A stretch of 33,396 nt of DNA from a virus, in IMG/VR virus record IMGVR_UViG_3300037961_000180, positions 1 to 33,396 of that record; one strand, 5' to 3'. Positions 3,743 through 7,719 of the stretch are shown here, one piece after another; position 1 is the first letter of the stretch; each line of letters starts with the position of its first letter. The translations under genes and the position numbers were made by a program. The notes under the pieces are model-generated. The model was not told the DNA's origin and searched no databases. It saw nothing but the letters and a program-made list of their open reading frames with translations.

Positions 3743-4133
3743 TCCAGTGTTCCCTTGCGACATAGACGAAGCCTTCCCAGTCCATCCTAATTTTTTCATC
3801 ATGTAAAGCGCCGTCTTTCATTAAATGCTCCAGACGCATAACAACTGTTATGGGTTGTCTGTCGTACTTATAGATAAGCACTGGCTCTTTACTTGCTGCG
3901 TTTGCAGCTTTCTCTACTTGATCCCACCAAGCTTTTTGATAGGTGTGACCTTTGCCTGCATAGCGTTTGCATTCGATAACATAAGGCCAACTTTCGTCGC
4001 TTACCACTATGTCTCCATGATCTGCTGCACGATATTGCTCTATATCGCGTTTTGCTTTTATGCCTAGATCAAGTTCCAATGCTCTACAAATATCTCGCTC
4101 GAAGCCTGCCCCTTTGTTACGACTGTTGACCAT
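3729..4133 (-). CDS. PD-(D/E)XK endonuclease, Holliday-junction-resolvase-like
   Basis: A 134-residue protein starting MVNSRNKGAGFERDICRAL. The basic N-terminal box followed by an E12-containing helix, then GDIVV (D41) and YVIECKRYA (E54, K56), is the catalytic order of Hjc-like and other small PD-(D/E)XK resolvases. It probably cuts branched DNA during replication or before packaging. The frame runs up to a TTG at 4169; ATG 4148 and ATG 4133 are both possible. I chose 4133 because related proteins usually start just before the NSR(x)KG box. It overlaps the upstream ribbon-helix-helix gene by 17 bases and the exonuclease by 14, so the three are one operon. The exact substrate cannot be read from the sequence. 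Confidence 0.75.
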   Translation of the reverse strand: MVNSRNKGAGFERDICRALELDLGIKAKRDIEQYRAADHGDIVVSDESWPYVIECKRYAGKGHTYQKAWWDQVEKAANAASKEPVLIYKYDRQPITVVMRLEHLMKDGALHDEKIRMDWEGFVYVAREHWNDKH

Positions 4134-4362: not shown

Positions 4363-4545
4363 ATGACAAAACTAGAAAAATACTCAAAGGCGTATTATTG
4401 CGCCGCTTCGAATGCGGAGGCGCTTCGTGCTTTTGCAGAAACTTTTGGATCGAAAAACCCTGCACTTCTACATGTTGTGGAGGATGTTTGTAGATCAATA
4501 GACTTAATGGACAAATACATAATGGAGAATAGAAATGGCTATTAA
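4363..4545 (+). CDS. Small unknown protein, first gene of plus-strand operon
   Basis: A 60-residue protein beginning MTKLEKYSKAYYCAASNAEA. It is predicted largely helical, with a Tyr/Ala-rich N-terminal part and a C-terminal amphipathic stretch around VVEDVCRSIDLMDKYI. The frame is open back to a GTG at 4339, but the ATG at 4363 has GGGAG at good spacing and leaves room for the promoter. It overlaps the next gene by 11 bases, so the two are translationally linked. No family recognised. As the leading gene of an early operon it could be a host-takeover protein, but nothing in the sequence shows that. Confidence 0.65.
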   Translation: MTKLEKYSKAYYCAASNAEALRAFAETFGSKNPALLHVVEDVCRSIDLMDKYIMENRNGY

Positions 4546-5317
4546 AAAAGCACCATCAGCAACTACACTAGAAATTCAACCACTTAAGCAAGGTCGCGTT
4601 AAATTACGCATGATGGGTACAACCCCATTGTATTTTAACAGCATGAGCAGCAAAGCCATGCGTGACTTGTTGGTTGGTGCAGGCAAAAAGACGGCTGCAC
4701 AAAAGAAAGAGATTAAACACAATCCAGAACAAGAGTTTCGTGAGAGTGTTTATAAAAAGCAACATGGCGAGACATTGCTATGCTTTCCTGCACCTGGGGT
4801 AAAAGGTGCAATGGCAACAGCAGCATTAGAGACAGACGGTATTACTAAGTCTAGTGTGCAACGTCTTATCTTTTTGCCAGAAACACACATTCAGATTTGG
4901 GGTAAGCCTCAGTTAAAGATTGATGTTGTTAGGTCTGCTGACATGAACAAGACGCCAGACATGCGTACAAGAGCATACTTGCCGCGCTGGTGTGCAGAGG
5001 TAGATATAGCCTTTGTGCAGCCCACGTTGTCTGTATATTCTATTGCGTCACTGTTAACCAATGCAGGATCAGTGGTTGGCATAGGTGACTTTAGACAAGA
5101 GAAGGGTCGTGGTTCATTTGGTTGTTTTCATGTTTTGACAGAAGACAGTATGGGCGACTACCAAGAGGATTGGGATAGTCTGATGCTTGAAGCTCGTGAT
5201 GTCCAACAAGAGGCATTAGACAATCCTGAGTGCGCTGATCCAGACACAGAAAGTCTAATGCAGTTTATGCAGGAAGAGCGTGCAAGGCGTGACATTACAC
5301 TTGTTGCGGCAGAATAA
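4535..5317 (+). CDS. Conserved phage protein, possible RAMP-like fold
   Basis: A 260-residue protein. After a basic N-terminus come MMGTTPLYFNSM (26-37), an acidic/basic linker, LLCFPAPGVKGAMATAAL (81-98), and a long central section ending in a Gly-rich loop, AGSVVGIGDFRQEKGRGSFG (177-196), before a variable acidic tail. From memory, proteins of this pattern (TPL box, F-P-x-x-G-x-K-x-A box, GxGxxRxxKGxGxFG loop) recur in many proteobacterial phages without an assigned role. The Pro-Gly-x-Lys-Gly-Ala box plus the late Gly-rich loop is reminiscent of RAMP (Cas5/6/7-type) RNA-binding folds. That is inference from motif shape only; a single-strand annealing or other nucleic-acid-binding role is equally possible. 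It is followed directly by a hairpin and the pentamer array. Confidence 0.7.
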   Translation: MAIKKAPSATTLEIQPLKQGRVKLRMMGTTPLYFNSMSSKAMRDLLVGAGKKTAAQKKEIKHNPEQEFRESVYKKQHGETLLCFPAPGVKGAMATAALETDGITKSSVQRLIFLPETHIQIWGKPQLKIDVVRSADMNKTPDMRTRAYLPRWCAEVDIAFVQPTLSVYSIASLLTNAGSVVGIGDFRQEKGRGSFGCFHVLTEDSMGDYQEDWDSLMLEARDVQQEALDNPECADPDTESLMQFMQEERARRDITLVAAE

Positions 5318-5321
5318 AGAG

Positions 5322-5339
5322 TGGGGCAGCAATGCCCCA
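5322..5339 (+). terminator. GNRA-loop hairpin after the possible RAMP-like gene
   Basis: TGGGGCA / TGCCCCA form a 7-bp stem (5322-5328 and 5333-5339) closed by a GCAA tetraloop, a very stable GNRA type. It starts four bases after the upstream stop codon. The downstream bases ATTCATTTGG are only partly T-rich, so it may be a weak terminator, an mRNA 3'-end stabiliser or an upstream border of the pentamer array. The stem core GGGGCA is shared with the hairpins at 2227 and 9893. Confidence 0.55.
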
Positions 5340-5345
5340 TTCATT

Positions 5346-5745
5346 TGGTCAAGGTTAGTCGGTCATGTCGGGGTATGGTCCAGGTGAGTCGGGGTGAGCT
5401 TTGGTAAGTTTGGGCGGTCGAGTCATGTTAAGTTCGGGTTTGCTTAGTTGCGTTCGGTTAAGGCGGTCAAGTCGGGGCGGGGTGATGTACGGTACGGCGT
5501 GTTACGTTAAGTCGGGTTCAGGCGGTCATGGTGATGAACGGTTTGGCATTGCGTGGCGCTTTATGGTCAAGTCGGTCAAGTCGGGGTGTCGTTAGTTATG
5601 TTATGTTACGTTAGCTTAAGGCGGTCATGTCGGGGTTCGGTAGGGTACGTTTCGGTCAGTTATGGTCTGGCGGTTTAGGTGCGGCTGGTCACGTTACGTC
5701 TTTGTGCGGTCCGTTACGTTTTGGCTGGGCGCGGCAGGGCGGTCA
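5346..5745 (+). repeat. Non-coding array of degenerate G/T-rich pentamers
   Basis: This 400-base gap between two conserved early genes holds no convincing gene. It shows a 5-base rhythm in which G followed by T or G recurs at each step while the other positions vary. Consecutive units near 5590 read GTTAT GTTAT GTTAC GTTAG; near 5410-5460 they fit NNGTT. The phase slips a few times, so about 80 units are present. Within it the 13-mer GGTCA(A/T)GTCGGGG occurs at 5361, 5465, 5574 and 5623, with a truncated copy at 5565. In bases 5401-5460, 45 of 60 are G or T. Possible roles: replication start through an R-loop or G-rich strand, a structured leader RNA, or a nucleoprotein binding platform. Confidence 0.75.
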
Positions 5746-5764
5746 AATTAAAAGGAGTAAAATT

Positions 5765-6262
5765 ATGGCTGGATTTAAAAAGAAAGATAGACAGAGAATA
5801 ATAGATGAATACTTAGCGGCAACGGGTAAAAACATGTTTCACCCTGCTGAGTTTGTAGACTGGTTAAAAGACAAGCCAGAGCATGAAGCGTATGATTTGT
5901 TTTATTCTATGAACGATGAAGACGCAGCTAGGCAATGGCGTGTGCAAATGGCAAGGCAAATGGCAAGCGGTTTGCGTATTGTTGTGAATCATTCTGATCC
6001 AGATCAAAAGACTGTTAACATAACGGTACGAGAGTATCCTGCATTTGTTAGTCCTGCGAAAGATCGTAGGCAGGGCGGTGGTTATCATGCTTTTGATCCA
6101 GATGATGAAATATTGCAGCAAGAGTTGCGTAGACAAGCTGCGGTAGGATTGGCATCATGGCTAAACCGATACCGTGGTTGCGCTGAAAATATTGGCTTGG
6201 ATATGCAGCCAATTGAAAGTATTGCAGAGGTCTTACGAGGTGTAGAAGAAGACGCCGCTTAA
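5765..6262 (+). CDS. Conserved phage protein of unknown function
   Basis: A 165-residue soluble protein beginning MAGFKKKDRQRIIDEYLA. It contains EFVDWLKDKPEHEAYDLF (about 34-51), a helix rich in Arg (ARQWRVQMARQMASG), the strand segment VNITVREYPAFVSP, then RRQGGGYHAFDPDDEILQQELRRQAAVGLASWLNRYRG. I recall similar proteins in other phages near homologues of the 4535-5317 protein, but no function is known to me. The frame is open upstream through the pentamer array. The ATG at 5765 is chosen because AAAAGGAG lies just before it and the upstream translation is low-complexity. Its position immediately after the array makes it the best candidate, with the 4535-5317 protein, for acting on the array. 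Confidence 0.8.
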   Translation: MAGFKKKDRQRIIDEYLAATGKNMFHPAEFVDWLKDKPEHEAYDLFYSMNDEDAARQWRVQMARQMASGLRIVVNHSDPDQKTVNITVREYPAFVSPAKDRRQGGGYHAFDPDDEILQQELRRQAAVGLASWLNRYRGCAENIGLDMQPIESIAEVLRGVEEDAA

Positions 6263-6580: not shown

Positions 6581-6822
6581 GTACGCACACGCTTAAGGCA
6601 AAGCGCAGGCATCCAGACGTTATGCGTCAGCATATACAGGTTGGACACATAACCTTTGAGTTTTGCAGAAAAAACAAAACCTTTGCTTTGATTGCAGGTG
6701 ATGCAGAGCAAGCAAAAGATAGACGCCCGTTGTTCACAGGCTTTATAGAGCAGGGCATGGACGTAGAGCTAAGACGGCTTGCGTCTGTTTTTAAACAAAT
6801 ATTGGAGCAAGATAATGACTGA
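6577..6822 (+). CDS. Small unknown protein
   Basis: An 81-residue protein with a basic start (MSTHTLKAKRRHPDVMRQHI), a strand-like VGHITFEFCRKNKTFALIAGD, then a helical C-terminus (VELRRLASVFKQILEQ). This looks like a small alpha/beta domain. It starts at an ATGA overlap with the previous gene and its stop lies within the start of the next one, so translation is coupled along this operon. No family or catalytic motif recognised. Confidence 0.65.
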   Translation: MSTHTLKAKRRHPDVMRQHIQVGHITFEFCRKNKTFALIAGDAEQAKDRRPLFTGFIEQGMDVELRRLASVFKQILEQDND

Positions 6823-6976
6823 AGAAGAGATAGCAAAAATCTGGAAAGACATGGTTAAGGATGAGAAAGACAAACATCGCAAAGCTTTGCATGGCTCTGC
6901 AAAGAGTATCACTCAGGAGAATAAGTTTAAGCTATTGAAAAACAATGGAAAAAGAGATCGTGAGGAAGCTCAGTAA
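6815..6976 (+). CDS. Small charged unknown protein
   Basis: A 53-residue, very hydrophilic protein beginning MTEEEIAKIWKDMVKDEKDK, predicted helical at the N-terminus and Lys/Arg-rich at the end. The ATG at 6815 has GGAG eight bases upstream and overlaps the previous gene by 8 bases. A longer frame from 6779 has no ribosome-binding site. No function can be read from it. Confidence 0.6.
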   Translation: MTEEEIAKIWKDMVKDEKDKHRKALHGSAKSITQENKFKLLKNNGKRDREEAQ

Positions 6977-7059
6977 CAAAAACTTATTATGAGAGCAGGA
7001 AAAGTATAACGCTAAAGGCTTCCTCTGCAAACATAATAACATATTAAGGAGTACAGGCA

Positions 7060-7266: not shown

Positions 7267-7719
7267 TTAAACCATTAACTCAAAGTGTGGAGCATCAATG
7301 AATGGACGCCTATTTTGTGAACGTCTAGTATCTATGTAATCGTTCATAGCGCTTTCCATATCACCTTCCCAGTGAGCAATATTAGGCACTGTCCATGCTG
7401 CTCCCCATCTAATTGGAACGTCACATACTCTAGCTGCTTCTGCCATTGCGTCAGCTATTTCATCATATAGATTTAGCTCCCAACGCCCACCATTTACATA
7501 GGCCATTAGATCAACAGCGTGTCCGTCAATGTGTTTGCTTTTCATAGTTTGTGATGCGCCTTTTGCCACCAAAGCTTTCTGTTCTTCAATAGTTCTAAGC
7601 CCACATATTACTGAAAAGTCTTGCTTACTCACACCTATAGCGTAGCGCACAACAGCATCCATACGCTCATCTATACCTTCTAGCTTTGCTAAACTACTTT
7701 TACCTAACTTGTAGCTCAT
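7267..7719 (-). CDS. Endolysin, M15 family L-alanyl-D-glutamate (or D-Ala-D-Ala) peptidase
   Basis: A 150-residue enzyme that should cut the peptide stems of peptidoglycan at the end of infection. The zinc-site motif SxHxxGxAxD is at 61-70 (H63, D70) and the third ligand is in PHFEL (H145). An N-terminal substrate-fold motif, CGLRTIEEQ (39-47), matches the VanY/T5-endolysin group. Length is typical for a single-domain M15 endolysin. It has no signal peptide, so it needs the holin encoded just upstream, whose stop it overlaps (ATGA). It is the last gene of the late block, and its stop touches the stop of the convergent plus-strand gene with no bases between. Confidence 0.93.
   Translation of the reverse strand: MSYKLGKSSLAKLEGIDERMDAVVRYAIGVSKQDFSVICGLRTIEEQKALVAKGASQTMKSKHIDGHAVDLMAYVNGGRWELNLYDEIADAMAEAARVCDVPIRWGAAWTVPNIAHWEGDMESAMNDYIDTRRSQNRRPFIDAPHFELMV

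Follow-up and report, generated by a model that had tools for sequence, protein, structure and literature searches.

The locus and its genes

The stretch analysed (the window) comprises 33,396 nucleotides, positions 1 to 33,396 of the IMG/VR virus record IMGVR_UViG_3300037961_000180. As the sequence-only reading had stated, the array studied here lies between two conserved genes. The features of the locus are as follows:

4535 to 5317, + strand: vipr candidate, predicted to encode a 260-aa RAMP (Cas7-like) protein (phrog_4652), assigned because its AlphaFold model matches Csm3/Cas7 subunits and because profile and blastp searches lead to SUSP1 Vipr
5323 to 5338, + strand: leader hairpin GGGGCA-GCAA-TGCCCC with a GNRA-type loop, between vipr and the array
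5347 to 5361, + strand: array leader GGTCAAGGTTA with the first 4-base punctuation, GTCG (5358-5361); the GGTCAAGG leader recurs in most relatives
5362 to 5412, + strand: module 1 from the unit parse, 10 units (one of 6 nt), then GGCG (5413-5416)
5417 to 5461, + strand: module 2, NN = GA AT AA CG TT TA GC CG AA, then GGCG (5462-5465)
5466 to 5520, + strand: module 3, NN = AA GG GG GA AC AC GT AC AA GG CA, then GGCG (5521-5524)
5525 to 5570, + strand: module 4 (one 6-nt unit), NN = AT GA AC TT AT GT GC AT CA, then GTCG (5571-5574)
5575 to 5619, + strand: module 5, NN = AA GG GT TA AT AT AC AG AA, then GGCG (5620-5623)
5624 to 5668, + strand: module 6, NN = AT GG TC AG AC TC CA AT CT, then GGCG (5669-5672)
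5673 to 5737, + strand: module 7, 13 pentamers, NN = TA GC TG AC AC TT GC CC AC TT TG GC AG
5738 to 5746, + strand: closing punctuation GGCG and GTCAA, end of the array
5765 to 6262, + strand: gene B, 165 aa, a candidate Vipr-accessory (vap) gene, conserved beside vipr among relatives with identities as low as 34%

Automatic gene calling would begin gene B at the ATG at 5627, within the array; homology favours 5765.

VIPR (Viral Interference Programmable Repeat) systems are the subject of a 2026 preprint (PMC13142463). According to its description, a phage RAMP protein works with guides made up of 9-16 GGY/NN pentamers; the NN dinucleotides recognise DNA, and one target base is skipped at each step. 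The experiments reported there concern an enterobacterial phage (SUSP1) and a Pseudomonas prophage, and the effect of the SUSP1 system in them was transcriptional repression (PMC13142463).

By its predicted fold, the product of 4535-5317 is a Cas7-like RAMP protein. Its AlphaFold model is of moderate confidence (pLDDT 72), and a Foldseek search with this model returned almost only chains of Csm3, type VII Cas7, Cmr and Cas7-11 (best E 9e-5). A profile of 15 family members gave a single significant match among the PDB sequences, SUSP1 Vipr (36pp_D, E 1.6e-4), in the G-loop region, and blastp of the 260-aa protein against the SUSP1 protein gave an E value of 8e-7. An ancestral RAMP with an RRM core and a G-loop is expected of VIPR, and the Foldseek, profile and blastp results, the latter two over the G-loop region, agree with it. 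Gene B, the conserved neighbour, gave neither a family match nor a fold match and may be an accessory (vap) gene.

The array consists of GKYNN units in seven modules

The intergenic stretch had been read as a five-base rhythm with a constraint on spacing rather than on exact sequence, and this was borne out. From 5347 to 5746, about 80 units follow the pattern G-[G/T]-[T/C]-N-N (consensus GKYNN). The lag-5 identity autocorrelation reached 0.433 compared to 0.294 in dinucleotide-preserving shuffles (z 5.8), and it was likewise above the shuffles at lags 10, 15, 20 and 25. Parsing the array region into units gave 73 pentamers, in which position 1 is G in 65, position 2 is T or G in 71, and position 3 is T or C in 70, whereas positions 4 and 5 are free. 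The 13-mer GGTCA(A/T)GTCGGGG, claimed to occur four times, was found at 5361, 5465, 5574 and 5623, and the reported GNRA hairpin upstream of the array was confirmed as well. The "few phase slips" noted earlier do exist, but they are not mere slips: mostly they are a single 4-base unit GGCG, sometimes GTCG, which closes each module. The seven modules of 9-13 units each are arranged head to tail. The register is perfect in modules 2, 3, 5, 6 and 7, and modules 1 and 4 each contain one 6-nt unit.

No long open reading frame spans the array, in agreement with its description as non-coding. It had also been described as neither a tandem duplicate nor a CRISPR array, and we found no long identical repeats with unique spacers. 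A CRISPR-Cas array was rejected on this ground and because a Pfam scan of ten neighbouring genes revealed no other cas family.

One of the roles suggested for the array was that of a structured leader RNA. In a wider form, a leader or decoy RNA would regulate gene B or, in a TRAP-like manner, use its repeated GKY triplets to sponge a host RNA-binding protein. The position of the hairpin 5' of the array fits this explanation, as does the period of 5, which resembles that of known ring-protein sites. But folding of the array RNA was hardly above that of shuffles (z -1.5), a sponge would not require the NN bases to vary and to decode to phage genes (see below), and the array lies elsewhere relative to gene B in some relatives. 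We therefore regard a leader or decoy function as very improbable. An Rfam search of the array returned no family.

Arrays accompany vipr homologues in related phages and plasmids

A search of IMG/VR with the upstream (vipr) protein yielded 75 loci. In 52 of them both genes are present and apart, with 285 to 981 nt between them, and these intergenic stretches show a period of 5 with z about 4 to 11, so that the arrays expected at the same locus in relatives were indeed found there. At the hairpin position, a stem is predicted in nearly all array-bearing relatives; the sequences differ, yet they still pair. In nine more distant relatives (marine), vipr and the second gene abut and the array is located 3' of the second gene. 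Gordonia phages Ecliptus and UmaThurman as well as Mycobacterium phage James carry a pentamer array with the unit GGCNN beside a vipr homologue. Because arrays accompany the homologues even where the array position differs, the array travels with the vipr gene family. The host genomes and plasmids with close vipr homologues are nearly all alphaproteobacterial.

Some of these loci deserve separate mention. In Gordonia phage UmaThurman (L078, 4628-4951), the annotated gene 40 lies within the pentamer array and is probably no protein gene. The GGCNN array of Mycobacterium phage James (L079, 3560-3950) is situated just 5' of gene 52, whose start is annotated within the array (3803) but is more likely the ATG at 3950. 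A Pararhodobacter marinus contig (L082) has two arrays (6771-6990 and 7481-7690), apparently flanking the second gene on both sides. At about 4231-4400 of L041, two leader hairpins stand in tandem, with a fresh array start after the second, as if the array had been duplicated. An additional stretch between hairpin and array at 4783-5000 of L007, common to several relatives (also L012 and L017), had no Rfam match. A plasmid of Paracoccus liaowanqingii (L127, 2767-4201) carries vipr, an array and the following gene near replication and parA genes, and a VIPR-type locus therefore occurs on plasmids, too. Finally, a 46-kb circular Sulfitobacter record (L126, 16001-17551) combines phage structural genes with a vipr (71% identical) and an array, and represents a phage-plasmid that lends itself to experiments. 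Sulfitobacter sp. LC.270.F.C4 (plasmid NZ_CP136687) is a host in which this clade occurs.

Modules are exchanged as whole units

Across the relatives, sites of the GGCGGTY type are spaced 4 modulo 5 in 320 of 473 intervals, the commonest spacings being 49, 54, 59 and 64 nt. Since the spacing is mostly 4 modulo 5, each module corresponds to consecutive pentamers together with a single 4-base unit. The relatives' modules mostly comprise 8-12 units, compared to 9-13 in the window. Altogether, the module set contained 279 unique sequences. They formed 205 clusters, and 49 clusters comprised two or more variants. The sister phage L001, whose vipr is 99% identical, has module 3 exactly and module 2 slightly changed, and other modules are replaced outright. 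Judging from this comparison, near-identical phages swap modules whole.

Whole-module exchange is also what recombination would produce, and this bears on a further explanation, in which a G-rich non-template array, comparable to the pentamers of immunoglobulin switch regions, would give rise to an R-loop and thus prime replication or recombination. The coding strand of the array is indeed G-rich in the direction of transcription; beyond this G-richness, nothing spoke for the R-loop or origin role as the sequence-only reading had listed it. Moreover, such a role leaves unexplained the fixed 4-base unit of each module, the tie to the RAMP gene where the array moves, and the agreement of the NN bases with other phages under no more than a single skip rule. 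We consider it extremely improbable.

The modules of relatives decode with a 1-nt skip to genes of other phages

The decoding rule was tested by reading the NN dinucleotides of the modules as NN-x-NN-x (1-nt skip) and comparing this with skips of 0, 2 and 3 and with shuffles. Searched against IMG/VR as a 19-base pattern, the commonest module identified two contigs (L087 and L088), both at the GDPY(I/L)AFAIQ motif of a family-A DNA polymerase. As both had been found by the skip-1 pattern, only the other modules matching these contigs provide an independent comparison of skips. With skip 1, other, unrelated modules matched L088 as well: 3 matches were exact, 7 had no more than one mismatch and 8 no more than two (module variants counted apart), whereas skips 0, 2 and 3 and five shuffles gave no matches with two or fewer mismatches.

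Prophages encoding this polymerase were collected by a protein search of 395 host-family genomes. Exact 9-pair matches to these target prophages numbered 27 for skip 1, which include low-complexity or repeat sites and come down to about 6-7 distinct modules once those with GG in most NN positions are dropped, compared to 1, 0 and 0 for skips 0, 2 and 3. The single skip-0 match is within chance (about 0.1 expected, an estimate). For the relatives' modules, the skip-1 reading thus far exceeds skips 0, 2 and 3 as well as the shuffles.

The targets are the polymerase, the gene directly 3' of it, and a 124-aa HGG-STGP gene, which is matched by three modules from three phages. A module of the sister phage L001 agrees with a P4-type integrase in 26/26 bases, about 16 of which were fixed by the search pattern while the remaining 10 were free. 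The terminase is a probable target; the pattern used here combined several variants of a module, 21/22 was the best agreement of any natural module, and the 13 contigs represent one homologous site. At the target sites examined, the skipped base is codon position 3 (wobble). No targets were found among the vipr loci themselves, where shuffles behaved alike. Taken together, the guides of the relatives appear to be aimed at genes of competing phages.

The modules of the window

The integrase guide of L001 has its counterpart in module 7. The antisense reading of module 7, LAH(K/N)VGA(K/N)VV(Q/H)AY, is the active-site motif of P4-type integrases. Five sites in the 395 host-family genomes agree with module 7 in all but 3 of 26 bases (23/26). 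All five lie in integrases at the active-site motif, compared to 0 sites for the reversed-pattern control. An exact target was found for none of the seven modules and a convincing one for none of modules 1-6; module 6 had no match in the target search. For module 3, two matches with 3-4 mismatches over the full guide were rejected, the host genomes giving 1 match versus 1 in the control. The single match of module 2 (L128) lies out of the wobble frame of the main gene at about chance level and was also rejected. None of the seven modules closely matches the phage that carries them.

Modules without an exact target and two modules with a 6-base unit would also be expected of a decayed VIPR locus, kept by chance and aimed at nothing current, which would be a sub-case of the VIPR reading and could share its origin. 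But both vipr and gene B have stayed intact and are conserved, the register of modules 2, 3, 5, 6 and 7 is still perfect, and module 7 continues to read the integrase motif. Moreover, missing targets are to be expected because the sampling of marine phages is thin. Decay is therefore unlikely in our view.

A probable tail-less VIPR guide array

What lies at 5347-5746 is almost certainly a VIPR guide array, accompanied by its own vipr gene, in a marine phage whose relatives live in alphaproteobacteria. According to this model, the seven modules of GKYNN pentamers would be seven guides separated by one 4-base unit. The array would be transcribed and cut at these units, and each guide would be bound by the neighbouring RAMP protein (Vipr). 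In this complex, the G-K-Y triplets would form the scaffold, and the NN dinucleotides would be turned towards the target and pair with double-stranded DNA as NN-x-NN-x, one target base being skipped per step. In the relatives, the genes matched by the guides belong to other phages and to prophages of Rhodobacterales hosts, and the match follows the codon register, so that the skipped base is at the wobble position. By analogy with the SUSP1 experiments as the preprint describes them (PMC13142463), the likely effect would be transcriptional repression of competitors; gene B may assist as an accessory. The platform for a protein contacting every fifth base that had been imagined earlier comes close to this mechanism, in which a RAMP protein would sit on an RNA of pentamer repeats, but it missed the information in the free NN bases, which form a gapped guide code, and the division into modules.

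The system resembles the VIPR of Escherichia phage SUSP1 (KT454805), as characterised in PMC13142463, in several respects: the RAMP protein has detectable sequence similarity, the guides consist of pentamers with NN dinucleotides (9-16 units per guide in SUSP1, 9-13 in the window), a 1-nt skip code with wobble at the skipped base applies, as shown here for the relatives, and the system is phage-encoded with targets in other mobile elements. It differs in that the SUSP1 guides are described as individual RNAs, each about 100 nt long and bearing a structured 3' tail (PMC13142463), whereas the window's guides are contiguous and tail-less; the tail of the SUSP1 clade is absent, and the modules abut through the 4-base separator GGCG. 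In addition, the scaffold is GKY, with GTY nearly as common as GGY, instead of the GGY of SUSP1, the array comes after a hairpin, unlike the SUSP1 guides, and the Vipr protein has 260 aa compared to 195-202 aa. The missing 3' tail is no bar to VIPR membership, because array architecture varies among the seven types that the preprint distinguishes (PMC13142463); the present array may correspond to the one it calls 'staggered'.

With class 1 CRISPR-Cas systems (type III Csm/Cmr, type VII Cas7), the locus shares the RAMP fold, variable guides with a short shared boundary, and phage targets. Unlike these systems, it has neither repeats and spacers nor other cas genes, and pairing in the window and in VIPR would be gapped with a 5-base step, while that of class 1 CRISPR-Cas is continuous with a 6-base step.

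It is conceivable, if somewhat doubtful, that in the tail-less array the one-base register break (GGCG, GGCA or GTCG, then GTY or GGC) is the only guide boundary and that guides are turned over as whole cassettes in the codon register of the target. Vipr or a partner would then have to locate the guide ends by phase, not by a structured tail. Cassettes pre-written in target codon register would imply some way of converting target sequence into the interleaved GKYNN form.

With the array described here, a new member is recognised among the VIPR systems, which were first described in 2026 (PMC13142463). It adds a VIPR clade in alphaproteobacterial phages, plasmids and one phage-plasmid, with 279 unique guide modules. 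The 1-nt skip code was re-tested on independent data, and named target genes are now available: the polymerase, the integrase, the HGG-STGP protein and probably the terminase. Two questions thereby become testable: by what means guides without tails are delimited, and in what way a phage converts its target into interleaved form.
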